Positions 3 to 12,200 of a DNA stretch of 37,318 nucleotides are shown in pieces. Below the pieces are notes generated by a model. It did not search any database, was not told where the DNA came from, and saw only the letters and a list, made by a program, of their open reading frames with translations. Position 1 is the stretch's first letter. Every line of letters starts with the position of its first letter. The position numbers were made by a program, and so were the translations under genes. The DNA is taken from NCBI RefSeq assembly GCF_000445475.1, contig NZ_AUPZ01000006.1, positions 1-37,318 on the forward strand, written 5' to 3'. This stretch comes from Sulfurimonas hongkongensis (GTDB taxonomy: Bacteria > Campylobacterota > Campylobacteria > Campylobacterales > Sulfurimonadaceae).

Positions 3-68
3 GAGAAAAAAGTACCTTATCAGACACTTATAAATGCTTTACTTAGAAAAGAACTACAGTCAGTATAA
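3..68 (+). CDS. C-terminal end of a BrnA/CopG-like antitoxin (5' end outside window)
   Basis: Only the last 21 codons are inside the window, ending in TAA just inside the first attC site. The tail carries VPYQTLINALLRKEL, the style of the second helix and DNA-binding end of ribbon-helix-helix antitoxins such as BrnA, which commonly end in YQTLINxLLxxY. Its position directly before an attC site makes it the last gene of a gene cassette whose toxin would lie to the left. Toxin-antitoxin pairs are common cargo of large chromosomal integrons. The call rests on a short stretch only, so the family is likely but not certain. Confidence 0.5.
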   Translation, partial: EKKVPYQTLINALLRKELQSV

Positions 69-130
69 CAAAACCTCGTAGCCAATAAATGCCCTAGCGG
101 TCATTTATTGGCTAGAGTCAACCGTTATAA
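63..130 (+). other. attC recombination site 1
   Basis: Left box GTATAAC (63-69) and right box GTTATAA (124-130) enclose a long imperfect palindrome. The inner arm TAGCCAATAAATG pairs perfectly with CATTTATTGGCTA around a CCCTAGCGG-type loop. The stop codon of the upstream antitoxin lies in the left box, as is usual for compact cassettes. The integrase would cut between G and TT at 124/125. The right box belongs to the next cassette and is matched by TTATAAC at 1271. Confidence 0.88.
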
Positions 131-148
131 ACACAAGGAGACAAAACT

Positions 149-1267
149 ATGGCAAATTTTTTTGCATTTATATTTTTCGGTTCAATTATTGGACTTATAG
201 TTGGTATGTTCAAACCAAAGGCAGTTGTTAGGTGGAAAGAGGAAGCTTCACGAAAAGATGTTTTTAAAATATATCTTTCCTCAGTATTGGTAAGTTTAGT
301 TGCAATAGGTATTTTTGCCCCAAAAGTTGAAAATAATAATAATGGTACAAAAGAAGAAGTGTCAATGACAGCCAAAGAAAAGCAACCTACAGTAGATGAA
401 GATTACGAAAAAGACAAACAGGAAGTTTTAAAATTACTAAATATGTCTTATCATGATCTATTTCAAGTTGAAAAAGATTTTTCGTATTTTCAAAAAAATA
501 TAGATAGTGATATCTATACAGCTATTTCAAGTGCAAAAAGAAATGAACCAAAGATAATGAAGCTAACATACAAATCCTATCCAGATAACTTTGAAGATAG
601 CAAAACAGAGGATATTGTAGAAAAATATATAGAGACACTACATAATTCAAATTTATTTTTACAAATGGCATACAATAACTTTCTTGATTATGTAGATAAC
701 AAGAAGCCTACATTAGTTGTAAAGTTTAAAGAAAATATACAATATTATCAAGCTTCAAAAATGCAAACTATCACACAAGCATTTTCTATCGGAGAAAAAT
801 ACAAGTTAGCTTATGATGAGATGACAGAGACTTGGAGAGAGAAAAAATTTATTGAAGAAGATAAAAAGGAACTTCAAACAAAACAAGATAATCTTAAACA
901 GACAAAACCATTTATAAATATGAAAGATTTCGATCCAAACACGCCTAAATATATCATTGCTGGTTTTATTACTACTTGGCAATACAAAGACTTTAAAGAA
1001 ATGGTTCAATATACGCAGAAAAGTTGGAGAGACAGAGAAAATTCACCTGCTGGATATCTACTTAATAGTTTTGAATATAAAACATTAACAGATGCAAAGA
1101 TTGAGAACATAAAAAAAAGAACAGATGATTTTTATGTTGCAATAATATCAATAAAATATAAAAATAGTTTTAACAATAAAGAAACTGTGGTCAAAATAAC
1201 ACCGACCATCATTAAAGAAGATGGAAAGTTTGGATTTAATCCAATTTCAGCGATAAGAGAACAGTAA
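149..1267 (+). CDS. Cassette protein with two N-terminal membrane helices, unknown function
   Basis: A 372-residue protein that I do not recognise. Residues 2-20 (FFAFIFFGSIIGLIVGMF) and about 43-58 (LSSVLVSLVAIGIFA) are hydrophobic helices, separated by a short basic loop. The remaining 300 residues are charged, rich in Lys, Glu and Asn, and likely helical, with a stretch around 235-255 that looks like coiled coil. This suggests a membrane-anchored protein with one large soluble domain. The start has an AAGGAG ribosome site about 8 bases upstream (136-141). It is the only gene of its cassette (about 125-1334), ending four bases before attC site 2. Function cannot be assigned; a structural or defence role would be a guess. 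Confidence 0.8.
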   Translation: MANFFAFIFFGSIIGLIVGMFKPKAVVRWKEEASRKDVFKIYLSSVLVSLVAIGIFAPKVENNNNGTKEEVSMTAKEKQPTVDEDYEKDKQEVLKLLNMSYHDLFQVEKDFSYFQKNIDSDIYTAISSAKRNEPKIMKLTYKSYPDNFEDSKTEDIVEKYIETLHNSNLFLQMAYNNFLDYVDNKKPTLVVKFKENIQYYQASKMQTITQAFSIGEKYKLAYDEMTETWREKKFIEEDKKELQTKQDNLKQTKPFINMKDFDPNTPKYIIAGFITTWQYKDFKEMVQYTQKSWRDRENSPAGYLLNSFEYKTLTDAKIENIKKRTDDFYVAIISIKYKNSFNNKETVVKITPTIIKEDGKFGFNPISAIREQ

Positions 1268-1270
1268 GGT

Positions 1271-1340
1271 TTATAACAAAACTTTGGAGAGAAATATTTG
1301 ACCCTAGCGGCTCAAATATTTCTCAACTCAACCGTTGTAC
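1271..1340 (+). other. attC recombination site 2
   Basis: Left box TTATAAC (1271-1277) is the exact reverse complement of GTTATAA at 124-130, closing cassette 1. The arm GAGAAATATTTGA pairs with TCAAATATTTCTC around CCCTAGCGGC. Right box GTTGTAC lies at 1334-1340. The outer arm GGAGAGAAAT is shared with sites 3, 4 and 5, showing one attC family. Confidence 0.9.
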
Positions 1341-1402
1341 TTACAAAATTAACTTTTAAGTAATATAAACTATTTATCAAATTAAATCAAAGGAATTAAA
1401 AA

Positions 1403-1798
1403 ATGTTTTTAGCATCACTATCATATAAACAAAGAAAGGTTTTCTTAGGACTAGCAAAAGAAATATTAACCATAGATGACGGAATTATGGATAACCATGA
1501 AGAGGACTATCTAAGAGGTTTATGTTCAGAAATGTCATTAAGCTTTAATGATGAATTAACAGTTAAAAAATCAGAGATTAAAGATTATTTTAATGAAATA
1601 GAATCAAAAAAAATATTATTATTAGAATTGGTAGCACTAGGACATTCAAACAAAGATTATCATGAAGCACAAGATAAATATACAGATGAAATTTGTAATT
1701 TAGTTAATATCCCTATGAAAGAACTCAAAAACATAGAAAGCTTACTAGAACAATACAATAAAATTCAAAATAAATTTATATCATTTATAGAGAGCTGA
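1403..1798 (+). CDS. TerB-like small helical protein, first gene of three-gene cassette
   Basis: A 131-residue acidic, all-helical protein. The pattern of an early LAKEILTIDDGIMDNHEEDYL segment followed by a helix with LLELVALGHSN resembles the TerB/DjlA-type fold of tellurite-resistance and phage-defence-associated proteins, in which acidic residues in the first half bind metal. The similarity is at the level of pattern only. AAAGGA (about 1389-1394) is a good ribosome site for the ATG. The stop is two bases before the next start at 1801, so the three genes of this cassette are probably co-translated. It lies between attC sites 2 and 3 in an unusually large cassette of about 3.1 kb. Confidence 0.6.
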   Translation: MFLASLSYKQRKVFLGLAKEILTIDDGIMDNHEEDYLRGLCSEMSLSFNDELTVKKSEIKDYFNEIESKKILLLELVALGHSNKDYHEAQDKYTDEICNLVNIPMKELKNIESLLEQYNKIQNKFISFIES

Positions 1799-1800
1799 TT

Positions 1801-2838
1801 ATGGGGTTTTTAAAAAGAACAGCTAATTTTGTAACATTTGGTGCAGTTGATAGAAGTGATGCAAAAAAAATTACAAAAAATGCCAACAAAAGAAAAGATG
1901 ATATCAAAGAAGAGCTAGATGATGCAAAAGAAAATACACAAAATGATATTAAAAATTTAGGGATTTTAAAAGAAACTACATATTCAGAAACAATTAGTAG
2001 TTTTGTTAAATCATATGAAGTTATAGGAAAAGTTGATTTAAAACCATTAAAACAAAATGAAGCTTTGGATTATGATATTTTTCAAGCAGATTTTAAAGAA
2101 ATGCAAATTATAACAACAAATATAAAAGAAATTTCTACAGCTGTTGTAGGTGGTGCATTAATAGGTACAACAGCAGCATTTGGTGCCATGGGAACTGCAG
2201 CAATTATAGGAACAGCCTCAACTGGTACGGCAATAGGAACATTATCTGGAGTAGCTGCAACTAATGCTACTTTGGCATGGCTTGGTGGTGGAGCAATAGG
2301 TGCAGGTGGTGCAGGTATGACTGGGGGAATGGTAGTCCTTGGAGGAATAGCACTAGCACCTGTCGTAGTGTTTGGAATGTTTATCGGAACAAATAAAGGA
2401 AAGCAAGTATTAAATGAAGCTAATAATTATTCTGATGAAATTGATGTACTTGTAGAAAAAGTAATAACATTGATAGCTGAGTTATCGCAAATAAGAAGAG
2501 GTTGCTACTTAATGAGTGAAAGTATACAAGGACTAGAAGCTTTAATGAAAGTTTATAATATTGAAATGGATAAAATAGCTTATAGATTGGAGCAAAGATC
2601 TGCTATATCAAAATTTATTGACCCAATAAAAAATAAAGTATTTAATATTGATATATTATCAAAAAAGGAAGCTGAAATATTTGCAACTTCTGCAAATATA
2701 GCCTCCATGTTAAGTGAGATTATAAAAATGCCACTCATGGATGAAGAAGGTGCTTTTATTAGTAATAGTTTAGAAGTTTTAGAATGTAATAATCAAGAAA
2801 TTGAAGAACTAAAACTTCAAATAAATCATCAAGGATAA
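1801..2838 (+). CDS. Glycine-zipper membrane protein, second gene of three-gene cassette
   Basis: A 345-residue protein with three parts. Residues 1-105 are charged and helical (KKITKNANKRKDDIKEELDD). Residues about 112-197 are a long Gly/Ala-rich hydrophobic block with repeated GxxxG spacing (VVGGALIGTTAAFGAMGTAA, then LGGGAIGAGGAGMTGGMVVL). Residues 198-345 are again helical and charged. Glycine zippers of this length are found in pore-forming or membrane-inserting proteins. A tiny gap to both neighbours, and the partner's own glycine zipper, suggest that the two work as a pair. No enzyme motif is visible. Family not recognised; membrane action is inferred from composition. Confidence 0.65.
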   Translation: MGFLKRTANFVTFGAVDRSDAKKITKNANKRKDDIKEELDDAKENTQNDIKNLGILKETTYSETISSFVKSYEVIGKVDLKPLKQNEALDYDIFQADFKEMQIITTNIKEISTAVVGGALIGTTAAFGAMGTAAIIGTASTGTAIGTLSGVAATNATLAWLGGGAIGAGGAGMTGGMVVLGGIALAPVVVFGMFIGTNKGKQVLNEANNYSDEIDVLVEKVITLIAELSQIRRGCYLMSESIQGLEALMKVYNIEMDKIAYRLEQRSAISKFIDPIKNKVFNIDILSKKEAEIFATSANIASMLSEIIKMPLMDEEGAFISNSLEVLECNNQEIEELKLQINHQG

Positions 2839-2842
2839 TTTT

Positions 2843-4360
2843 ATGGATTTATTTGGATTTAAAAAAAGGAAAAAAGAAAAAGATTTTACCAATGAAGTAA
2901 ATGTAGCTATTAGTGCTGAATTAGAAAGGTTTGGATTTGCCAATGCTGAACACTTTAAATCACATACGGATTTAAGTAAAATTGCTGATAGTAGTATTAA
3001 TCCAGAATATGTTGATAATAATTATCATCAACAAGCTGGATTTTCTGCTGAAATAAAAACAACAGCAAGAACAAATGCAAATAATATTATTGATGGGAAG
3101 AACACAAGAATAAGTAGGACTGATGACGTAGGAAGTGTTAATCACCCACAATTTGACCATGTAGAAGTTGATAAATATGGAAATCCAATTTTAGATACTA
3201 ATGGAAAATATATGGGAGGTTCACAACAAAAAGTTTTTAAAAATCTTGACAGCTATAGAAAGCTTTATGGAAAAGAATTTAACCACTATAAAGATGCCAT
3301 CTTAGATGTACCAAGTGATCAAATCAAAGATATTAAAACTGATTGGAATAATCAAATTTCAAAACTTAAAAAACAAAAACAAAATAGAATCGAAAGTGGA
3401 GACAGTGTTAAGGCAAATGATTTACAGAAAAGAATTGATGAAATAGAAAATGCTAAAAGTAGATTAAGAGATGCAAAAGTCACTACAGAAGAAGCTATGG
3501 AGGCGAGAAGAAACCATAATATAAGTATTGCTAAAGATATCGGTAAAATATCTCATAAAGCAGGTATAGAGTCTGCAAAAATTGGCGGCACTATTAGTGG
3601 TGGAATAAATTCAGCTAAAAATCTTTATGCTTATTTTAAAGGTAATAAAAGTGCTAAAGAAGCATTACAAGATATGGCAGTTGATACAAGTAAAGCAACA
3701 GCACTTGCTTATGCAAGTGGAGCAACAAGTTCAACTATTGGTGGAGTTTTAAAATCTTCAAGTAATCAAATTGCACAAAACTTAGCAAAAGGTAGTACAC
3801 CTACTGTAATACTACAATCAGGAGTAATATTAGCAAAGCAAACAAAAAACTTATTATCTGGAAAAATTGATGCAAATGAATTTGCTAAAAATATTGGCCA
3901 AGAAGGAACTACATTAGCAACATCTTTAACGGGTGCAAATTTAGGAGCAGTTGTAGGAACTGCAATAATACCAGGTGTTGGAACAATTGTTGGTGGTGTC
4001 ATTGGTGGTATGACAGCATCAATTATGAGTAGTGCAGTATATTCAGAATTACAAAAATCAATTCATGATACAGAAATATCAAATCAGCAAAGAGAAGCAA
4101 TAAAAAATTATTGTAAAGATTTAATTAGTCAAGAAAAAGAGTACCGTGAATATGCAATGTCAATTTATGATAATTATTTTGACAAAAAAGAATTAGAAAT
4201 AAAAGATGGATTCAAAACTGTAAGTTTGGCTATTCAAAATGGTGAAGATATAAATAGTGGCTTAGCAGTTATTGGTAAGGCTTTTAACATTGAATTGCAA
4301 TTCAACAACACAGAAGAATTTAAACAACATATTAAAAGTGAAAAAACTTTAAAATTGTAA
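2843..4360 (+). CDS. Large protein with glycine-zipper region, third gene of three-gene cassette
   Basis: A 505-residue protein of unknown family. The basic N-terminus (FGFKKRKKEK) is followed by a His/Asp-rich part around residues 50-115 with EIKTTARTNANNIIDG, SRTDDVGSVNHPQFDHVEVD and KYGNPI, which looks like a compact folded domain. A coiled-coil stretch lies at about 165-225. A Gly/Ala-rich segment occupies about 230-400 and includes AVVGTAIIPGVGTIVGGVIG, a typical glycine-zipper membrane hairpin. The C-terminal hundred residues are charged and helical. The architecture (soluble domain, coiled coil, glycine zipper) is like membrane-acting effectors or toxins, but no catalytic motif can be named. 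It ends 24 bases before attC site 3. Confidence 0.65.
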   Translation: MDLFGFKKRKKEKDFTNEVNVAISAELERFGFANAEHFKSHTDLSKIADSSINPEYVDNNYHQQAGFSAEIKTTARTNANNIIDGKNTRISRTDDVGSVNHPQFDHVEVDKYGNPILDTNGKYMGGSQQKVFKNLDSYRKLYGKEFNHYKDAILDVPSDQIKDIKTDWNNQISKLKKQKQNRIESGDSVKANDLQKRIDEIENAKSRLRDAKVTTEEAMEARRNHNISIAKDIGKISHKAGIESAKIGGTISGGINSAKNLYAYFKGNKSAKEALQDMAVDTSKATALAYASGATSSTIGGVLKSSSNQIAQNLAKGSTPTVILQSGVILAKQTKNLLSGKIDANEFAKNIGQEGTTLATSLTGANLGAVVGTAIIPGVGTIVGGVIGGMTASIMSSAVYSELQKSIHDTEISNQQREAIKNYCKDLISQEKEYREYAMSIYDNYFDKKELEIKDGFKTVSLAIQNGEDINSGLAVIGKAFNIELQFNNTEEFKQHIKSEKTLKL

Positions 4361-4383
4361 CTTAAACTTTATCTAGTTAATAA

Positions 4384-4454
4384 GTACAACAAAATCTAGG
4401 AGAGAAATAGTTTACCCTAGCGGGCAAAACTATTTCTCAAGAAAGTCGTTAGAT
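4384..4454 (+). other. attC recombination site 3
   Basis: Left box GTACAAC (4384-4390) is the exact reverse complement of GTTGTAC at 1334-1340, so genes 1403-4360 form one three-gene cassette. The arm GAGAAATAGTTT pairs with AAACTATTTCTC around CCCTAGCGGGC. Right box GTTAGAT is at 4448-4454. Confidence 0.9.
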
Positions 4455-4470
4455 AGACAAGGAGATTTTT

Positions 4471-5979
4471 ATGGCGATAACATTAAAGAGACAAATATCA
4501 GAAGATGAGAAGAATATTGTATTAGAAAAGTATGGTCATATTTGCTATGCAACAGGACATGAAATATTAGATGAAAAAGATATACATTTTGATCATATTA
4601 AAGCATTTGCAGATAATGGTGTATCTGAAATTGACAATATAGCACCAATGTGTAAAGAGCATAATTTAAAAAAAGGTAGATTACCACTTGAAGACTTTAG
4701 AATAAAGCTAAAACTTGAAACTTTTTTTCAACAAGGTCAAGCTTTGACTCTCAAAGATGAATTACAATATTTTCAGGATAATAAAGACATTAATGGCTTT
4801 GGATTATCTGTATATTCAAAAAGTACAGAAAATACTATTGAAATTGAAATTGCAAATAAAAAAACCACTTATCATCTTTTTACATGTCCAACGACACAAT
4901 GGAAATATTTTTATGCATTAATACCCGTAGAAGCTATCAATAGTGACGATGATGAAGATGGGGAAATTGGACTACAACCAAGATATTTAATTTTGGATAA
5001 AGTATTTAATTTGTATCGTCACTTTCAAAAACATCCTGTTCTTCAACCATCAATTGCTAGACTATATAAAAATAAAATTTTAGTTTTTGATGGGCAACAT
5101 AAAATTGCTTCTATGCTATGGGGTGGAAGAAAAGAATTTGAACTAAAAATATATATTAATCCAGACCCACAAATACTTAATAATACAAATATTGCCGCAC
5201 ATGATAAGTTTGCACAAACAAGATTTTACTCATCGATTATGGTTTCCAAACTTGGTTCTCAATTTGGAAAGCAATTTGAAGACTATAAAAATAAAGAAGA
5301 TGAAGAGAAAAAAAGTGAACTCGGATTTATAAATCATTTAAAAATATCAGATGAACTAACTGTTGCCGAAGCAAACAAAAGATTTTACAGCTTTTTATAT
5401 AATATGGTATTAGATCCAGAAGTAAATAATATAGTCCATCTTGTTTCAAAAAGTAATCGAAGTTCTAATGAATACCCACTGACAGTAGACATGTTAAGCA
5501 AATCACTGTTTAGTAATTTTTTATACAGACACCCACTTGATGAAGATATGGCTTCAAAGCACTATATAAGAGAAAAAGAAATAAATAACTTGATAAAACT
5601 TTTTAATATTTTTCATGATGAAGCACTTCATGATTGGGATGCTAATAAAAATTCAAGTGATACAAATCAGAATAAATTAGCAAGACTAATACGAAGTAAG
5701 TCTATTATGTCATGGTCAGAAATTTTAAAAGATGCAATTGCAGCCAAACTTGATGTTATAGATGCTGATGATAAAGAAAAACTATTTTATGGGGAAATAT
5801 CTGATGAAAGCTTCGAGAAAATAAGACAAGTTGTAAGAAGATTGGTAGAATGGGCAATATGGTCTTTACCACAAGATTCAGAAATTGATAGAATTTTATC
5901 TGATAATAAAAGTGAAATCAAAAAATATATGAAAAGTAAAGGCTTAACTGCTGGTTATTTATTAGGTGCCCCAGAATAA
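4471..5979 (+). CDS. HNH nuclease-domain protein with DGQHR-like domain, probable defence gene
   Basis: A 502-residue protein. Residues about 20-75 form an HNH motif: CYATGHEIL, then FDHIKAFADNG, then IDNIAPMCKEHNLKKGR, with the expected D-H, N and H-N-K residues and two cysteines that could hold zinc. Around residues 205-211 is VFDGQHK followed by IASMLW, close to the DGQHR signature of DndB-like and ParB/sulfiredoxin-fold proteins. The rest is helical and unassigned. HNH plus DGQHR suggests recognition and cutting of modified or foreign DNA, but the substrate is unknown. AAGGAG sits 8 bases before the ATG. It is alone in its cassette, between attC sites 3 and 4. A non-defence nuclease role remains possible. 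Confidence 0.72.
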   Translation: MAITLKRQISEDEKNIVLEKYGHICYATGHEILDEKDIHFDHIKAFADNGVSEIDNIAPMCKEHNLKKGRLPLEDFRIKLKLETFFQQGQALTLKDELQYFQDNKDINGFGLSVYSKSTENTIEIEIANKKTTYHLFTCPTTQWKYFYALIPVEAINSDDDEDGEIGLQPRYLILDKVFNLYRHFQKHPVLQPSIARLYKNKILVFDGQHKIASMLWGGRKEFELKIYINPDPQILNNTNIAAHDKFAQTRFYSSIMVSKLGSQFGKQFEDYKNKEDEEKKSELGFINHLKISDELTVAEANKRFYSFLYNMVLDPEVNNIVHLVSKSNRSSNEYPLTVDMLSKSLFSNFLYRHPLDEDMASKHYIREKEINNLIKLFNIFHDEALHDWDANKNSSDTNQNKLARLIRSKSIMSWSEILKDAIAAKLDVIDADDKEKLFYGEISDESFEKIRQVVRRLVEWAIWSLPQDSEIDRILSDNKSEIKKYMKSKGLTAGYLLGAPE

Positions 5980-5983
5980 AGGT

Positions 5984-6054
5984 ATCTAACAAGTACTTGG
6001 AGAGAAATACGAAGCCAAAGCGCGGCTTCGTATTTCTCAAGAAAGTCGTTATAT
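5984..6054 (+). other. attC recombination site 4
   Basis: Left box ATCTAAC (5984-5990) is the exact reverse complement of GTTAGAT at 4448-4454. The arm GAGAAATACGAAGCC pairs with GGCTTCGTATTTCTC around a short AAAGCGC loop. Right box GTTATAT lies at 6048-6054. Confidence 0.9.
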
Positions 6055-6069
6055 GAACAAAGGAAAAAA

Positions 6070-6414
6070 ATGTATAAAGTGATAATTTTAGTTTTGGCAA
6101 TTATTTTGTCTGGATGTTCAGCAAAAAAAGTTATGTTAGAAGCAAATAGTGTTGAAATTGTTAACGAACCTGTTAATAAAAGTAAATGTAAATTTTTGGG
6201 TGAGATAATTGGTTCTCAAGGAAATTGGTTTACTGGTGATTATACATCAAATAAAAATTTAGTTACTGGTGCGAGAAATGAACTTCGCAATGAAGCATAC
6301 AAACTTGGAGCGAATATTGTTTATATACAAAATATGGCAAATACAAATGCTTGGGGTTCTCTTGGGACAACCAATACTACAGCTATTGGTAAAGCATATA
6401 AGTGTTCGTACTAA
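6070..6414 (+). CDS. Small DUF4156-like lipoprotein
   Basis: A 114-residue protein with a lipoprotein signal: basic-hydrophobic MYKVIILVLAIILSGC with lipobox LSGC, so Cys16 would be lipidated. The mature part has KCKFLGEIIGSQGNWF, then ARNELRNEAYKLGANIVYIQ and a final KAYKC, which is the arrangement of DUF4156 lipoproteins: two cysteines that could pair, and a central RNELRNEAxxxGAN helix. Members are probably outer-membrane lipoproteins of unknown role. AAAGGA precedes the ATG by about 5 bases. It is the only gene of a 432-bp cassette, and its stop codon abuts attC site 5. Confidence 0.8.
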   Translation: MYKVIILVLAIILSGCSAKKVMLEANSVEIVNEPVNKSKCKFLGEIIGSQGNWFTGDYTSNKNLVTGARNELRNEAYKLGANIVYIQNMANTNAWGSLGTTNTTAIGKAYKCSY

Positions 6415-6415
6415 C

Positions 6416-6486
6416 ATATAACAAGTACTTGGAGAGAAATATGAAGCCAAAGAGCGGCTTCATATTTCTCAAGACAGTCGTTATAT
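6416..6486 (+). other. attC recombination site 5
   Basis: Left box ATATAAC (6416-6422) is the reverse complement of GTTATAT at 6048-6054. The arm GAGAAATATGAAGCC pairs with GGCTTCATATTTCTC. Right box GTTATAT lies at 6480-6486. This site is nearly the same as site 4 (only a few base changes), so the two probably share a recent ancestor. Confidence 0.9.
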
Positions 6487-6559
6487 CCTGTATCATTATC
6501 ATGATGCTAGATGATGTAACTATTTTATATAGTTGCAAATTCAAAAAAAGGAGTCTTAC

Positions 6560-6652
6560 ATGGGAAAAGGCGGATGCACTCCACCAAATGGTCCTAGTAC
6601 AACAGGTAACCCATCTGGTGGCGGTAGAGGAAATTGCTCTCCTAAAAAATAA
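6560..6652 (+). CDS. 30-residue Gly/Pro-rich peptide with two cysteines
   Basis: A very short reading frame (30 codons and TAA) with a strong ribosome site, AAAAAGGAG at about 6545-6553, seven bases before the ATG. The peptide begins MGKGGCTPPNGPSTTG and ends NPSGGGRGNCSPKK: seven to eight Gly, several Pro, Cys at 6 and 26, and no hydrophobic segment. Similar short GPSTTG...PSGGGRGN peptides may be widespread as unnamed small proteins, but I cannot confirm this here. It is the first gene of cassette 5, upstream of a toxin-antitoxin pair. A palindrome that could be its terminator follows at 6663. Function unknown. Confidence 0.5.
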   Translation: MGKGGCTPPNGPSTTGNPSGGGRGNCSPKK

Positions 6653-6662
6653 TTAAAGAAAA

Positions 6663-6695
6663 AATATACATCATTTTGCTAAAATGATGTATATT
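6663..6695 (+). promoter_or_regulatory. Perfect palindrome: candidate toxin-antitoxin operator and promoter, or terminator
   Basis: A perfect inverted repeat with 15-bp arms (AATATACATCATTTT) around GCT ends about 19 bases before the antitoxin start. It contains TTTTGCTAAAAT, the extended -10 form seen before other genes here (TAAAAT at 6680-6685). Antitoxins usually bind palindromes over their own promoter, so an operator is the first reading. There is no T-run after it, which speaks against a simple terminator. Confidence 0.5.
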
Positions 6696-6713
6696 CGAAT
6701 ATTGGAGTTAATC

Positions 6714-6947
6714 ATGACAGCTTTAAAACAAGATGAGCTTTTTAATGAGATAGATATTTTACCAATAGATTTGAAAACTGAAATTGTTGATAAGATATTA
6801 GCTAGTATCACACCTTTAAACAGTGAAATAGATAAACTATGGATAAAAGAAGTTAACAAAAGAAAACAAGAGGTTGAGTCAAATTCCATTACATTAGTTG
6901 ATGGAGACGAAGTTTTCAAAAAAATCTCTCAAAGACTCCACTCATAA
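6714..6947 (+). CDS. Antitoxin, addiction-module component family (TIGR02574-like)
   Basis: A 77-residue acidic helical protein. LPIDLKTEIVDKILASI followed by LWIKEVNKRKQEVESNSI and LVDGDEVFKKI is the typical build of the putative addiction-module component family: N-terminal helices, then W-x-x-E-x-x-x-R, then a GxxV tail that wraps the toxin. I chose the ATG at 6714 because GGAG (6704-6707) lies 6 bases upstream; the in-frame start at 6684 is inside the palindrome and has no ribosome site. Its stop TAA is directly followed by the ATG of the toxin, the usual antitoxin-first operon. The module probably stabilises the array. Confidence 0.82.
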   Translation: MTALKQDELFNEIDILPIDLKTEIVDKILASITPLNSEIDKLWIKEVNKRKQEVESNSITLVDGDEVFKKISQRLHS

Positions 6948-7241
6948 ATGACTTACTCTTTCCACCCAGATGCTGAAGTCGAATTAAATGCTTCAGTTGA
7001 CTACTATCAAGAATGTAAAGATGGACTTGGTGCAGAATTTGCATATGAAGTTCAAAAAACAATCCAAAGAATTTTAGAATATCCTACTGCTTGGCAGAAA
7101 CTAGATGAAGAAATAAGAAGATGCTTAACAAACAGATTTCCTTTTGGAATAATCTACTATCAAAGAGATAATGAAATTATTATTTTAGCTGTTATGCAAC
7201 TTCACAGAAAACCAAACTATTGGAAAGAAAGAAAGATATAA
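6948..7241 (+). CDS. RelE/ParE-family toxin
   Basis: A 97-residue basic protein. FHPDAEVELNASVDYY opens the first helix, then LGAEFAYEVQKTIQRI, YPTAWQKL, then RRCLTNRFPFGIIYYQ and IIILAVMQLHRKPNYW. This is the complete RelE/ParE fold with the conserved R-x-F-P-x-x-I-x-Y strand and the HxxRxPxYW end. The family splits into ribosome-dependent mRNA cutters and gyrase poisons; the ParE-like C-terminal end slightly favours the gyrase type, without proof. The stop codon lies inside the left box of attC site 6, so the pair is a tight cassette end. Confidence 0.85.
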   Translation: MTYSFHPDAEVELNASVDYYQECKDGLGAEFAYEVQKTIQRILEYPTAWQKLDEEIRRCLTNRFPFGIIYYQRDNEIIILAVMQLHRKPNYWKERKI

Positions 7242-7305
7242 CAAGTACGAGGAGACCAATAATTTACCCTAGCGGGAAAATTATTGCTCACGACAACCGT
7301 TATCC
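7236..7305 (+). other. attC recombination site 6
   Basis: Left box ATATAAC (7236-7242) is the reverse complement of GTTATAT at 6480-6486, closing the toxin-antitoxin cassette. The arm GACCAATAATTT pairs imperfectly with AAATTATTGCTC around ACCCTAGCGGGA. Right box GTTATCC lies at 7299-7305. Confidence 0.88.
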
Positions 7306-7344
7306 GCTCACTGCGTGACCGGATAACGGGGGCGCGGGTTGTAC
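7299..7344 (+). other. Collapsed 39-bp mini-cassette with remnant attC
   Basis: GTTATCC (7299-7305) is followed only 16 bases later by its exact complement GGATAAC (7321-7327), then GGGGGCGCGG and a new right box GTTGTAC (7338-7344). By the rule that holds for the other sites this is a cassette of 39 bp without a gene, whose attC has lost nearly all of its stem. GTTATCCG and CGGATAAC with TCAC/GTGA inside also form a strong hairpin. The patch is GC-rich, unlike its surroundings. Reading it as a deletion remnant is inference. Confidence 0.6.
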
Positions 7345-7387: not shown

Positions 7388-9460
7388 ATGGTAGCTATGC
7401 AACATTTAGACATTCCAATTAATCATTATGACAGTGATAAATTAAACTTTAAACCATTTGCAAAAAAAGTTGCTACAAGTATATTAAATTATAATCAAAA
7501 TGAGACTTTAATATTTTCGATTGAAGGAAGGTGGGGAAGTGGTAAAACATCATTAATAAACCTAATAGAAAATGAAATAAAAGGTAATGTTGAAGTATTA
7601 CATTTTAATCCTTGGTTATTAACAGATATTAGTCAAGTTATTAAACTTTTTTTTGATGAACTTATAAAAATATTATCATATGGCTCGTTTAAAGTAAAAT
7701 TAAATGAAGATATCAAAAAAGATTTAAAAAATTTAGCAAATATTTTGTTACCTGAAAGCATGACAATAAAGGTGCCTTTTATAAATATAGGCTATAAGCC
7801 AAAAGATGTTTTACTATCAAGTAGTGAAGATAGTTTAGAAAAAATCAAATTGAAAATTAATAAATATTTAAAAAATTTAGATAAAAAGATAGTTATAGTT
7901 ATTGATGACATAGATAGATTGACAGACAATGAGACAGAATTTATTTTTAGACTCACAAAAGGTATAGCTGATTTTGACAATTTGATTTATATTCTATTGT
8001 ATGATAAAACTATTGTATCTAAATCACTTCAAACATTTAAGCAAGAAGATGGAGAGAAGTATCTTGAAAAAATAGTACAGTACTCTTTATCTGTACCAAA
8101 ACCGCATAAATTAACTTTACATAATTTATTATTTGAAAAACTAGACTTGATTATTAGAAAACTTGAAGATGATGGTAATCAAATATTTTTTGATAAAGAC
8201 AAGTGGTATTATATAGTAAATAAGGTGTTTACAAAATATATTTTAACCATACGAGATATAAATAACATTATAAATATCATCTCTTTTGAGTATCCAATAG
8301 TTACAGAAGATGTAAATCTATCAGATTTTTTTCTTATTTCATTACTTAGAGTAAAGAATAATTCACTATATGAAAGTATTCAAAATACTCCTGAGAAATT
8401 TTTTATTGATACGGAAACGATGATTTTGGATGAACATAAGAATCAAGTGATAGAATCATTAAAAAAAATTATTAAAGATAATCAAGAATATAAAGAGATA
8501 CTTAATTTATTATTTCCAATCATAGGAACAGATGAACTAGGTTATGAACAAAAACCAATAAATAAAGACCATAAAAACAAATATTTAGCTGATCCATATT
8601 ATTTTGAGAATTATTTTTCTTTTTCAATGTCCGATGATAAATTAACACATAGAGAGTTTAAAGAGATAGAAAAATACTTTTTAGATAGTGACTTTGATAA
8701 ATTTAAACAAGAAATACTAAATCTTGATAAAAATAGAAAAAGTTCCTTATTTTTAGAGATGTTTGAACAAACTAGTTTAGATAGCTTAAATAATCAAAAT
8801 AAATTAAACAATGGATTTTATAATGCTGTAAAAATATCTTATCAACTAGAAGAGGGAAAATTTGATAAGAATATGGGGTGGACATATATATCTCCATCCA
8901 TTAGATATATTTGGCTATCTTACGAAATATTGAGAAAAATTGATAACATCGATGCTTTTTTATTAAAATTCTTTACATTCATAGGAGAACAAGTTGTTCC
9001 CCTAATTATAAAAGTTGATATATATGAAAGAATAATAAAAGAAATATCTGAACAATCACATGAAAAATTAAATATTAAAGATGAAACAAAAGAGCAGATA
9101 TTTAAACATTTGAAAAGTAGATTAGAAAAATTATCTTTAGATGATTTTTTGAATGATGATAAAATTGAAACTTATATCTTTTCAAGATATGATAAGTTTG
9201 ATTTAACTTTGGATAAAATATCAAATGAATTAAATAATTATATTTTTAAAACAAATGATAATTTTTTTACAATTTTAAACAAATTTAAATATTGGCAAAT
9301 GTCATCTGACGGTAACAGATGGCTTATTGCAAAAGATAGTTTAAATAAGTTAATTAGCTTAGAAGATGTTGAAAAGTACATAAGTGATTTAAAACAAAAA
9401 GATTTAAGTGATAATCAAAAAGAATTATTAGAAATATGGGATAGAAAAACAAGGTGGTAA
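7388..9460 (+). CDS. KAP-family P-loop NTPase
   Basis: A 690-residue protein. Walker A GRWGSGKTS is at residues 47-55, with FNPWL about 30 residues later (the conserved W of KAP NTPases), and Walker B IVIVIDDIDRL around 168-180. RLTKGIADFDNLIYILLYDK then follows, a sensor region typical of the family. The C-terminal 400 residues are helical and AT-rich, with no hydrophobic insert, so this KAP protein seems soluble. KAP NTPases occur in many defence systems as sensor or switch proteins. The ATG at 7388 lacks a clear ribosome site; a second Met is at residue 4, and a short TTG-initiated leader with AAGGA overlaps the start and might couple translation. The next gene (Fic) starts 6 bases after the stop. 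Confidence 0.82.
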   Translation: MVAMQHLDIPINHYDSDKLNFKPFAKKVATSILNYNQNETLIFSIEGRWGSGKTSLINLIENEIKGNVEVLHFNPWLLTDISQVIKLFFDELIKILSYGSFKVKLNEDIKKDLKNLANILLPESMTIKVPFINIGYKPKDVLLSSSEDSLEKIKLKINKYLKNLDKKIVIVIDDIDRLTDNETEFIFRLTKGIADFDNLIYILLYDKTIVSKSLQTFKQEDGEKYLEKIVQYSLSVPKPHKLTLHNLLFEKLDLIIRKLEDDGNQIFFDKDKWYYIVNKVFTKYILTIRDINNIINIISFEYPIVTEDVNLSDFFLISLLRVKNNSLYESIQNTPEKFFIDTETMILDEHKNQVIESLKKIIKDNQEYKEILNLLFPIIGTDELGYEQKPINKDHKNKYLADPYYFENYFSFSMSDDKLTHREFKEIEKYFLDSDFDKFKQEILNLDKNRKSSLFLEMFEQTSLDSLNNQNKLNNGFYNAVKISYQLEEGKFDKNMGWTYISPSIRYIWLSYEILRKIDNIDAFLLKFFTFIGEQVVPLIIKVDIYERIIKEISEQSHEKLNIKDETKEQIFKHLKSRLEKLSLDDFLNDDKIETYIFSRYDKFDLTLDKISNELNNYIFKTNDNFFTILNKFKYWQMSSDGNRWLIAKDSLNKLISLEDVEKYISDLKQKDLSDNQKELLEIWDRKTRW

Positions 9461-9466
9461 TAAAAA

Positions 9467-10153
9467 ATGCAAAAACTAAATAAGCTAACGCTAAAACAAA
9501 GAGAAGAACTTTTTAGACAACTTCGTATTTCTATCACACATCACTCAAATGCAATGGAAGGCACAACACTTTCATTTGGAGAAACTAAAGAATTACTTGA
9601 ACTTGGACACACAGCAGGGCATAAACCACTGGGTGAACAGCTTGTAATATTAGGCTTTGCAAAAGCTTATGATGTAATAGTTCGTGAAGCATCAAATAAA
9701 GAAAATATTATAGACAGTAGTTTTATCAAAGATATTCATGCCATTATGTTTGAAGATGCTCTAAAAGTGGCACCCCAATATGTATCTAAACCGATTGGAG
9801 CATATAGACTAGATGAACGATATATAAAAGGTGTAGATATAAAACTGTCTTTGCCACATATGATTTCAAACGATATTGAAAATTTACTCTATAGATTTCA
9901 TAGTAATAAAATGGATTTACTAGATATATCAGAGTTTCATATACTATTTGAAAGAATTCATCCATTTGCTGATGGAAATGGAAGAGTTGGTAGATTAATA
10001 ATGGCATTTCAAGCTATTCAAAATAATATAGTACCTCCACTTATAGAAAATGAGCATAGAGATGATTATCTAAAAGCTATAAACAATAAAGATGACTTGT
10101 GTAAATTTTTGGATGAGAGTATTACTAAAAGTTTAGAATTGATAGATTTATAG
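9467..10153 (+). CDS. Fic-family protein (AMP-transferase fold)
   Basis: A 228-residue protein with an intact catalytic loop HPFADGNGRVGR at residues 165-176 (His165 is the base; the family motif is HxFx(D/E)GNGRxxR). The N-terminus has SNAMEG at 27-32, fitting the inhibitory (S/T)xxxE(G/N) helix of self-inhibited class II Fic enzymes, so activity is probably held off until Glu31 is moved. Fic enzymes transfer AMP or other phosphate groups to target proteins; some work as toxins or in defence. Its start lies 6 bases after the KAP gene and the two probably form one operon. No attC site follows: IS21-type sequence begins about 6 bases after the stop. Confidence 0.88.
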   Translation: MQKLNKLTLKQREELFRQLRISITHHSNAMEGTTLSFGETKELLELGHTAGHKPLGEQLVILGFAKAYDVIVREASNKENIIDSSFIKDIHAIMFEDALKVAPQYVSKPIGAYRLDERYIKGVDIKLSLPHMISNDIENLLYRFHSNKMDLLDISEFHILFERIHPFADGNGRVGRLIMAFQAIQNNIVPPLIENEHRDDYLKAINNKDDLCKFLDESITKSLELIDL

Positions 10154-10198: not shown

Positions 10199-10655
10199 AG
10201 AGACCGTTTAAAATTTCGTGTCAGCTACATTTAGTAACATAAAGCTACACCTCTAAATATTTATCCAGCCTCCCTTCGAAAAAGATAGCAAGTTGAGAAA
10301 TAGTCAGTGACCAATTTCTCACTGGCATACTCCATTTTTTACTTGCATTTTGTATCCCTAAATATAGTAATTTCAAGAGTGAATTTTCATTTGGAAACGC
10401 ACCTTTAGTTTTAGTTAGTTTTCTAAACTGGCGGTGTACTGATTCTATAATATTTGTAGTGTAAATTGTCTTTCTAATCTCTGCTGGATACTTGAAAAAT
10501 ACAGATAGATTCTCCCACTTATTATTCCAAGAGTTGATGACAAGTGGGTATTTTTTACCCCATTTGTCATCAAGTTTGAGTAGTTCTTCTTCTGCTACTT
10601 CCTTAGTTGTCAAGAGCGTAGTTAAATTAGGCATTTTTTCGTAAAATTTTTTACG
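10199..10655 (-). mobile_element. IS256-family 3' fragment with terminal repeat
   Basis: The outer end AGAGACCGTTTAAAATTTCG and the following GTGTCAGCTACATTTAGTAA (39 bp in all) recur exactly at 37280-37318. The end fits the IS256-type pattern of an AATTTnGTGTC inverted repeat. Inside is the last third of a transposase. The 5' two thirds and the other end are missing; IS21-type sequence takes over near 10660. Confidence 0.75.
10245..10655 (-). pseudogene. IS256-family transposase, C-terminal remnant
   Basis: The frame gives about 137 residues, from RKKFYEKMPNLTTLL to the natural C-terminus GRLDKYLEV. Clear family marks are DDKWGKKYPLVINSWNNKW, YPAEIRKTIYTTNIIES and the following VHRQFRKLTKTKGAFPNE; the Glu of IIES is the last acid of the DDE catalytic triad. 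The first two Asp residues, and so any activity, are lost. An open frame starts at an internal Met at 10634, but similarity seems to go on upstream to about 10655. The full-length family is about 400 residues. Confidence 0.85.
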
Positions 10656-10680
10656 AATTGTAACCTTAAGCGACGAGGCT

Positions 10681-11086
<406 letters not shown>

Positions 11087-11093
<7 letters not shown>

Positions 11094-12200
11094 CATAATG
11101 CACCTCCAACTGCATACACTGGTACAAGTATATAAGTCATAGCAGGGATGAAAGCATCATAACTTTGTAAATCTCTTGTGGGTATATGTATACTTATTCT
11201 ATTGGATGTTTGCTTATCTTGTGTTACACTTTTAGCTGTAGCTTTTATTGGGTGGATTCCGTGATAAGGCTTCGGTAGAGGTAGCAACTGCAATTGCTCT
11301 TCTGCCAACATGTCAAATGGCCTGTAAAGTGTTGTTTGATGTATTCTCGCGTTAGCTGTAAAGTCTAGCCAATCCATAACTTCCGCATTAGCGTTTTGTA
11401 AAGTCATTTTATAACCCATCATTGAGAGCCTTGTTTTAAACATATTGTGAAAACTATATCTAAGATATAAGATAGTGATTGAACCGTTCTACTTTACCTT
11501 TCGTTTGAGCACGATAAGGCTTACAAACTTTTAGTTGCATCCCACAGTGTTTCTGGGCAAAGTCACGAAGCTGTTCGTTAAATTTATGTTTGCCATAGCC
11601 ATAAGCATTTCGTTTTATGATGACAGTTTTCATATTGTCATAAAGTCCTTCTGCTGGTACACCACCGAAGTAACTAAATGCATTCATATGACATTTAATA
11701 AGAGTATCAACTTTCTCATCACTTACATATTCGGCATAAGATGCACGAGAATATCCCATTGTAGCTACAAATGCAGATAAACCATCTTTAGGAAACTCAA
11801 CCCAGTCCACTTGCATCTGCTGACCTTTTTTAGTCTCAAACCTGACTAACGGTTCTTCATCTTTAACTTTTTGACGTAGTTCATGGCTTCGCACAACTTC
11901 ATTCATCCAGCGCAATGAACCTCTATAACCTAGCTTTTGAATTTCTTGATATACTGATGTATTTGGAATCTCTATACCAAGTTTATATGCTTCTTCTAGC
12001 ATCATGGCAATATTGGGGAGGTATGGATCTACAGTTGTTGATACAGGCTCTCTTTTTATTACAGGAACATAGCCTTCAGGTAACTTGGCATATTTAGTAA
12101 CTGTATTTCTATTGATACCTAGTTTACGAGCAATTGCAACTTTACTCAATCCATCTTTGAGCATTTTATGAATCATTTTTACTTCACCTTTTTTAAGCAT
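11087..12200 (-). pseudogene. istA: IstA-type IS21 transposase with 7-bp duplication frameshift
   Basis: Frame one (12200 to 11460) has an N-terminal helix-turn-helix (LSKVAIARKLGINRNTVTKY) and the first part of a DDE integrase core (QMQVDWVEFP, then VPAEGLYDNMKTVII, then TKGKVERFNHYL). It stops at FNHYLIS. The rest (MFKTRLSMMGYKMTLQ to the C-terminus VYAVGGALWH) is in another frame. The cause is visible: TAAGATA occurs twice in tandem at 11461-11474; removing one copy restores HYLRYSFHNMF. The product would lack the last catalytic region. The ribosome site GGAGA is 5-6 bases before the start. Confidence 0.9.

Follow-up and report, generated by a model that had tools for sequence, protein, structure and literature searches.

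A one-gene integron cassette of Sulfurimonas hongkongensis encodes an HNH protein with a ParB/sulfiredoxin-type DGQHK domain and a possible role in restriction

What might be the role of a gene that travels alone in an integron cassette and that joins an HNH nuclease to a motif resembling that of the DndB proteins? The question is raised by an ORF of 502 codons at positions 4471-5979 (+ strand) of the window, the term that we use for the whole stretch of 37,318 bases analysed here, which is the entire contig C6 of the S. hongkongensis genome. An initial annotation had noted an HNH motif and FDGQHK in one chain of this ORF and had classed the latter as DGQHR-like; both are present, with FDGQHK at residues 206-211 of the product, and its wording is corrected here in that the motif reads DGQHK. 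No PADLOC, Pfam or NCBIfam model names the 502-residue protein (P0001) as a whole. At E<=1, it matched by itself only the HNH family PF01844 and, at chance level, ChrB_N in Pfam, only the HNH part of IscB in NCBIfam, and nothing in PADLOC; its central region was called by no model of the three libraries at this threshold. Since the region around DGQHK is thus invisible to curated models, it was tested by comparisons of profiles and folds, for which 11 full-length family members were aligned. As explained below, we consider it on balance probable that this cassette gene encodes a defence effector of the restriction type that works as a one-gene system.

The mobile setting of the gene can be read from the DNA around it. 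Sites of the attC type flank it at 4384-4454 (+ strand; the site of the preceding cassette) and at 5984-6054 (+ strand; its own site), and were matched by R1, a covariance model built from 8 attC sites, with 77.8 bits (E 1.3e-15) and 72.9 bits (E 2.3e-14), respectively, both being training sites of the model; both belong to a family of repeats (D1 for the second site). The start of an integron cassette must pair with its own R'', and in this cassette the 5' start, GTTAGATA, and the cassette's own R'' are reverse complements along 8 bases, as compared with 4 for the neighbouring R'. The matching own ends and the attC sites therefore place the HNH gene alone in a cassette of 1600 bp at 4449-6048 (+ strand), with boundaries between the G and TT of the R' sites, that is bounded by attC and has complementary ends. 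The five complete cassettes of the array at 63-7305 (+ strand) show own-end matches of 9, 10, 8, 8 and 8 bases versus 3, 3, 4, 7 and 5 for the neighbouring R', the value for the fifth, whose R'' overlaps a stop codon, being obtained when tested in register. The array is delimited by R1 matches together with these own-end matches; its six attC sites (63-130, 1271-1340, 4384-4454, 5984-6054, 6416-6486 and 7236-7305, all on the + strand and all training sites of R1) are imperfect palindromes. The earlier reading of the gene as a mobile cassette of its own is thus borne out.

The remainder of the genome also carries the marks of an integron. R1 gave at least 27 matches at E<=1 (from 150 of 335 first-look candidates that were scored) and at least 20 at E<1e-5, 12 of these 20 lying outside its training set; the matches are located on contigs C6, C14, C20, C7, C16 and C22. 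An intact integron integrase (IntI; 415.5 bits against a cut-off of 265) is encoded on contig C14 and is adjoined there by an attC array, on a contig separate from that of the window and with the linkage of the two not assembled. A second integron integrase, interrupted by an internal TGA, occurs at 5447-6430 of contig C7 (392.5 bits), which has two attC-like matches at 954-1022 and 2052-2118.

The window holds other cargo as well. Within a three-gene cassette at 1335-4448, the second ORF (1801-2838) gave a PADLOC match of 86.8 bits to PDC-M09A, a candidate defence family, and the fifth cassette carries, at 6684-7241, an antitoxin-like gene (Unstab_antitox) and a 97-residue partner that has no Pfam match, the two being probably a toxin-antitoxin pair. 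Inspection by eye of the bases beyond the last attC (7299-7327) showed GTTATCCG and, within 29 bases, its own complement CGGATAAC, an arrangement like a tiny or truncated cassette that carries no gene. Just past the same site, a KAP-family P-loop NTPase resembling PifA (7388-9460; 290.8 bits in PADLOC) precedes a Fic-domain gene at 9467-10153, and IS transposases (Mutator family, IstB and integrase core) are represented by fragments at 10245-12200, beyond the array. A scan of the window with Rfam gave nothing at the gathering threshold.

The N-terminal part of the protein, residues about 10-81 (4498-4713, + strand), is predicted to be an HNH nuclease domain of the beta-beta-alpha metal type with intact catalytic positions. 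The match of P0001 to PF01844 is 20.4 bits, just below the cut-off of 21.4, and all 11 family members match this model at E<=1; PHROG profiles match the domain as well, and the family profile at about positions 12-80 matches HNH chains in the PDB (Cas9, a Geobacter HNH nuclease and others). C25, D41, H42, N56, N65 and K68 are invariant in the 11 aligned members, among them the catalytic His and Asn, and Cys and His at zinc-ligand-like positions are conserved in two forms: positions 61 and 64 are C and H in seven members and H and C in the other four, which also have C28. Both arrangements around C25 fit the pattern expected of a zinc-bound beta-beta-alpha HNH site. The model of the domain superposes (VIA-align) on Cap5, the HNH domain of Cas9 and EcoKMcrA at Z values of about 5-7, a level that is possibly common by itself.

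In the central part, residues about 137-246 (4879-5208, + strand), the modelled structure points to a ParB/sulfiredoxin (ParB/Srx) fold. In Foldseek, the PDB chains ranked highest were Noc, ParB, PadC and sulfiredoxin, at modest E-values that start at 2.4e-3 and stay above 0.001, and VIA-align superposed the model of residues 137-246 on PadC with Z 9.9 and an rmsd of 2.1 over 96 residues, on ParB with nucleotide with Z 9.5 and an rmsd of 2.0 over 93, and on sulfiredoxin with Z 8.5. Among predicted viral structures, 5 matches pass E 0.001, one of which is named ParB/sulfiredoxin. Searched against the PDB, the family sequence profile gave E 0.22 and 0.29 for its matches to ParB chains, values that are not significant.

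Evidence on the relationships of this domain also came from profile-profile alignment (hhalign) with 12 DGQHR/DndB proteins, a set obtained from 18 loci that yielded 14 ORFs with a DGQ[HQ][RK] motif, the long fusions of L070 and L078 being excluded. The 11-member alignment matched this set with a probability of 94.2 and E 1.2e-7, with DGQHK laid on DGQHR. The central region by itself (residues 132-352) scored 61.0 (E 5.7e-8), as compared with a maximum of 19.2 for 40 column shuffles of the same set and 16.7 for the reversed profile, and this difference speaks for a distant homology to the DGQHR/DndB domain. The C-terminal part scored 19.6, no better than the shuffles, and the HNH part scored 11.2 and has no counterpart in the 12 proteins when these are judged as one profile. 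The close group of relatives taken alone gave a weak alignment with the DGQHR/DndB set (24 columns, probability 77), which reached E 6.5e-6 when cropped to the centre. Seventeen DUF262 proteins (a usable ORF was obtained from 17 of 20 loci) matched the central region with a score of 27.9 and a probability of 4.4, 20 shuffles giving scores up to 16.2. As far as sequence can tell, the switch domain is therefore nearer to DGQHR/DndB (61.0) than to DUF262/GmrS (27.9). Its FDGQHK motif (residues 206-211; 5086-5103, + strand), presumed to bind an NTP, is invariant in all 11 members, and the last residue is Lys in each of them versus Arg in 12 of 12 compared DGQHR proteins. The suggestion of the initial annotation that an HNH domain is joined to a DndB/ParB-like domain was thus upheld by the ParB/Srx fold and the profile link to DGQHR/DndB. 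Of the two findings that it had named as refuting, a central region lacking such a fold and HNH residues that vary among homologues, neither was obtained, D41, H42, N56 and N65 being invariant.

The remainder of the chain, residues 270-502 (5278-5976, + strand), was folded alone with AlphaFold2 and gave a confident, all-helical model (pLDDT 88.1, pTM 0.85). It found no Foldseek match in the PDB at E<=0.001, and the best VIA-align Z was 3.6 among the 432 chains aligned, poor matches that do not establish a new fold. The AlphaFold2 model of the full-length protein, made from the 11-member alignment, has a mean pLDDT of 82, with values below 50 at residues 241-260; its pTM is only 0.50, and the predicted domains are therefore believable while their arrangement is not.

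The relatives found are scattered across several phyla. A single pattern-based pass through 84,980 species genomes, a method limited to close relatives, recovered 5 full-length relatives at 60-73% identity in the multiple alignment: one each from Neomarinimicrobiota (L004), Bacteroidales (L005) and Ignavibacteria (L008) and two from Planctomycetaceae (L006 and L007). Within the phylum of S. hongkongensis, 46 of 397 genomes have a match at E<=1e-5; the match is full-length in only 3 of these (S. hongkongensis itself, G005 and G269) and is confined to the N-terminal HNH part in the remaining 43. Similarly, 2 of 395 genomes in the phylum of L005 pass E 1e-20, namely the L005 genome itself and G729. 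Two full-length loci at 22-23% identity were found in viral contigs, where all other matches were HNH-only and where P0001 alone found no full-length relative. P0001 found HNH-only matches in 8 Streptococcus phage records of the phage collection, which had no match to the distant member L022, and the plasmid collection had no match. The high identity across several phyla, taken together with the patchy spread within each of them, indicates that the family was probably spread by horizontal transfer. Five pairs were compared for substitution rates: the distant-type members of G005 and G269 differ with dN 0.017 and dS 0.272, and P0001 differs from L004, L005 and L008 with dN 0.20-0.25, dS being saturated for the first two and 1.5 for L008. 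Judged by these rates, the protein is under purifying selection, which disfavours the status of a decaying passenger.

There are indications that some of the relatives are also cassettes. The homologues at L004 and L005 each have an own-end match of 10 bases, a length reached by 6 of 2000 random intervals (8 or more bases by 29 of 2000), and an IntI gene (468.5 bits) lies upstream of the relative on the contig of L004. These are the grounds on which the two look like cassettes, since R1 found no attC at E<=1 in any of 10 relatives' loci (L004-L008, L020-L022, L080 and L081). The cassette signature is not shown by L006, L007 and L008 (own-end matches of 3, 6 and 3 bases), and no IntI was found at E<=1e-40 in the genomes of L005, L006, L007 or L008 or in G269.

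Other relatives reside among restriction genes. In G005 (L020), the order according to Pfam and PADLOC is HsdR, a PsyrT-like RecQ helicase (965 bits), a PsyrA-like DprA (438.6 bits), the HNH-DGQHK gene, HsdM and HsdS, such that a PsyrTA pair within a type I restriction cluster (6304-9524 of L020) directly precedes the gene. Translations read by eye show the same order in G269 (L081), where PsyrA is shorter and HsdS differs; because the two loci share this order and very similar proteins, the PsyrTA/type I context is counted once. A SIR2_2 gene adjoins the relative in G729 and lies three genes downstream of it in G269. A type IIG restriction-methyltransferase (983 bits) is encoded upstream of the relative at L022, two genes intervening, and at L008 an 849-residue protein encoded 44 bp downstream has methyltransferase-like motifs by eye and no match in Pfam, NCBIfam, PADLOC or PDB sequence searches. 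Recombinase- and terminase-like genes are seen by eye near L021, and L006 and L007 lie on short contigs with little context. No gene for DNA modification accompanies the HNH-DGQHK gene in its cassette in the window, at L004 or at L005.

Membership in the known classes that share parts with this protein was examined and rejected. For DndB/DGQHR proteins, PF14072 had no match at E<=1 in the 11 members, and TIGR03187 reached a best E of 0.018 in 2 of the 11; the motif is DGQHK, not DGQHR. In agreement with the earlier remark that no dnd genes are nearby, the DndB model PF14072 had no match in the S. hongkongensis genome at E<=1e-5, and dndC was absent at E<=1e-5 from all 11 genomes or records with a family member, among them two virus fragments and several draft genomes; a link to phosphorothioation was rejected on these grounds. 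For GmrSD, neither PF03235 nor PF07510 matched the 11 members at E<=1, and the central motif is DGQHK and the N-terminal HNH is PF01844-like. PF03235 had no match in the S. hongkongensis genome at a strict E<=1e-15; 3 weaker candidates fall outside this limit, so that the genome may still hold a divergent DUF262 gene at another locus.

Likeness to these systems is nevertheless instructive. DndB/DGQHR proteins (PF14072, TIGR03187) share a ParB/Srx-type domain, the DGQH[R/K] motif and the best profile-profile match, but have Arg in place of Lys and no counterpart of the HNH domain in the 12-protein profile. GmrSD, as described, consists of ParB/Srx plus HNH (PMC4619093), and in GmrSD, SspE and DndI a DGQQR ParB/Srx-fold NTPase is reported to control an HNH nuclease that is part of the same polypeptide or of a partner protein (PMC4619093, PMC9646914, PMC11662687). 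The type IV systems GmrSD, BrxU and TgvAB (DUF262 plus DUF1524) thus resemble HNH-DGQHK in combining a ParB/Srx NTPase domain with an HNH nuclease; they differ in having HNH at the C-terminus rather than at the N-terminus, in reading DGQQR rather than DGQHK, and in the weak similarity of their DUF262 profile. TgvAB, a Vibrio system, is moreover embedded in a type I restriction locus according to a review (PMC12409362), as is the relative in G005. SspE and DndI, the phosphorothioate-sensing DUF262-HNH proteins, are described as a one-chain NTP switch with an HNH nickase, the likeness ending with the order of domains, the motif and the lack of dndC. A 2025 survey (PMC12704722) reported as novel, in bacteria, proteins in which HNH is fused to the ParB-CTPase fold (PF01844 with PF02195), the same two folds as here; the fusion counts given there rest on PF02195, and as PF02195 is absent from all 11 members at E<=1, the HNH-DGQHK family is probably outside those counts. 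Nucleases and ParB-HNH (GmrSD) proteins have been described around Dnd and BREX systems in two comparative studies (PMC10853773, PMC12839542), and a search of the literature, with supplements outside its scope, found no description of an N-terminal HNH-DGQHK family.

For function, GmrSD, SspE and DndI are a better comparison than DndB itself. The protein has the parts of these systems in the reverse order and is therefore best explained as a device of the same kind; by this analogy, it most likely works as an NTP-gated HNH restriction effector. Further points in favour are the position of relatives beside restriction or defence genes, the purifying selection, the cassette setting and the role of integron cassettes as anti-phage reservoirs, as reviewed (PMC12409362). 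The ParB/Srx domain would use DGQHK to bind, and perhaps hydrolyse, an NTP; on contact with target DNA, the NTP state would change and so release or position the HNH domain, and the latter would nick or cut the target as in GmrSD, SspE and DndI. The target might be distinguished by a modified base or backbone or by the absence of a host mark, and the helical C-terminal domain would be the likeliest site for the recognition of DNA or of a partner. Sensing of modified DNA, as had been proposed at the outset, is put forward here as a hypothesis. Binding of ATP/GTP has been reported for a DndB-like protein (PMC12704722), and the mutations R100A in SspE and R87A in DndI, both in DGQQR, are reported to abolish NTP hydrolysis (PMC9646914, PMC11662687), as mutants of the HNH Asn impair nicking (same sources). 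All 11 members have Lys where SspE and DndI require Arg for hydrolysis, and NTP hydrolysis is therefore not assured for this family. As cargo of an integron, the gene would be poorly expressed when deep in an array and would be expressed once brought close to the promoter.

Other explanations must be weighed against a restriction effector of one gene. The protein might be a suicide (abortive-infection) effector or the toxin part of a system, in which a trigger frees the HNH domain to damage the cell's own DNA and in which PsyrA-like or other partners restrain it where they are present. Its position directly after PsyrT and PsyrA in G005, and by eye in G269, is consistent with this, as are the toxicity of DndI to cells that are without its mark, as reported (PMC11662687), and the antitoxin-like gene with its partner elsewhere in the cassette array. 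No antitoxin shares the cassette of the HNH-DGQHK gene, which is its sole occupant in the window, at L004 and at L005, and the PsyrTA linkage is probably one event; we regard a suicidal role as unlikely. The adjacent genes can also be read as the other half of a split system, in which a methyltransferase or other marker enzyme would be needed in trans and marked DNA would be spared. HsdM directly after the gene in G005, the type IIG methyltransferase near L022 and the methyltransferase-like neighbour 44 bp downstream at L008 point in this direction, but the last is matched by no library, the cassettes of the window, L004 and L005 hold no modification gene, and dndC is absent from all 11 genomes or records; a dependence of this kind seems to us quite unlikely.

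Free-standing HNH genes of phages are often mobile, and the HNH-only matches in Streptococcus phage records raise the thought that the gene serves homing or mobility, or else that its product is a regulator of the DndB kind whose HNH domain is vestigial, and that it is not a defence gene at all. The description of DndB as an ATP-dependent repressor (PMC12704722) would suit the second of these roles. Against both stand the invariance of the HNH catalytic positions in 11 of 11 members, the attC-cassette ends of the gene and the location of relatives among restriction genes, and we hold either role to be very improbable.

If the restriction effector that we favour is taken one step further, the protein and its relatives might constitute a new family of restriction enzymes, each made by one gene and gated by an NTP, in which HNH comes first and ParB/Srx second, the motif is a Lys-type DGQHK and the helical domain is an unrecognised sensor. 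Such a family would occur both within a type I/PsyrTA locus and as a streamlined cassette exchanged by integrons across phyla; we offer this broader proposal tentatively, as a possibility that we would not yet call probable. Chromosomal integrons are reviewed as holding anti-phage cassettes, among which type II and type IV systems are reduced in size (PMC12409362). Should the proposal hold, a restriction plan that combines a ParB/Srx switch with HNH would have been reached with an order of domains opposite to that of GmrSD, SspE and DndI, and the whole plan would fit a single 1.6-kb cassette that is easy to clone and test. It would pose the question of whether the DGQ[HQ]R switch can work with Lys in place of its Arg, and it would add a class of restriction enzyme to the reported anti-phage reservoir of chromosomal integrons.
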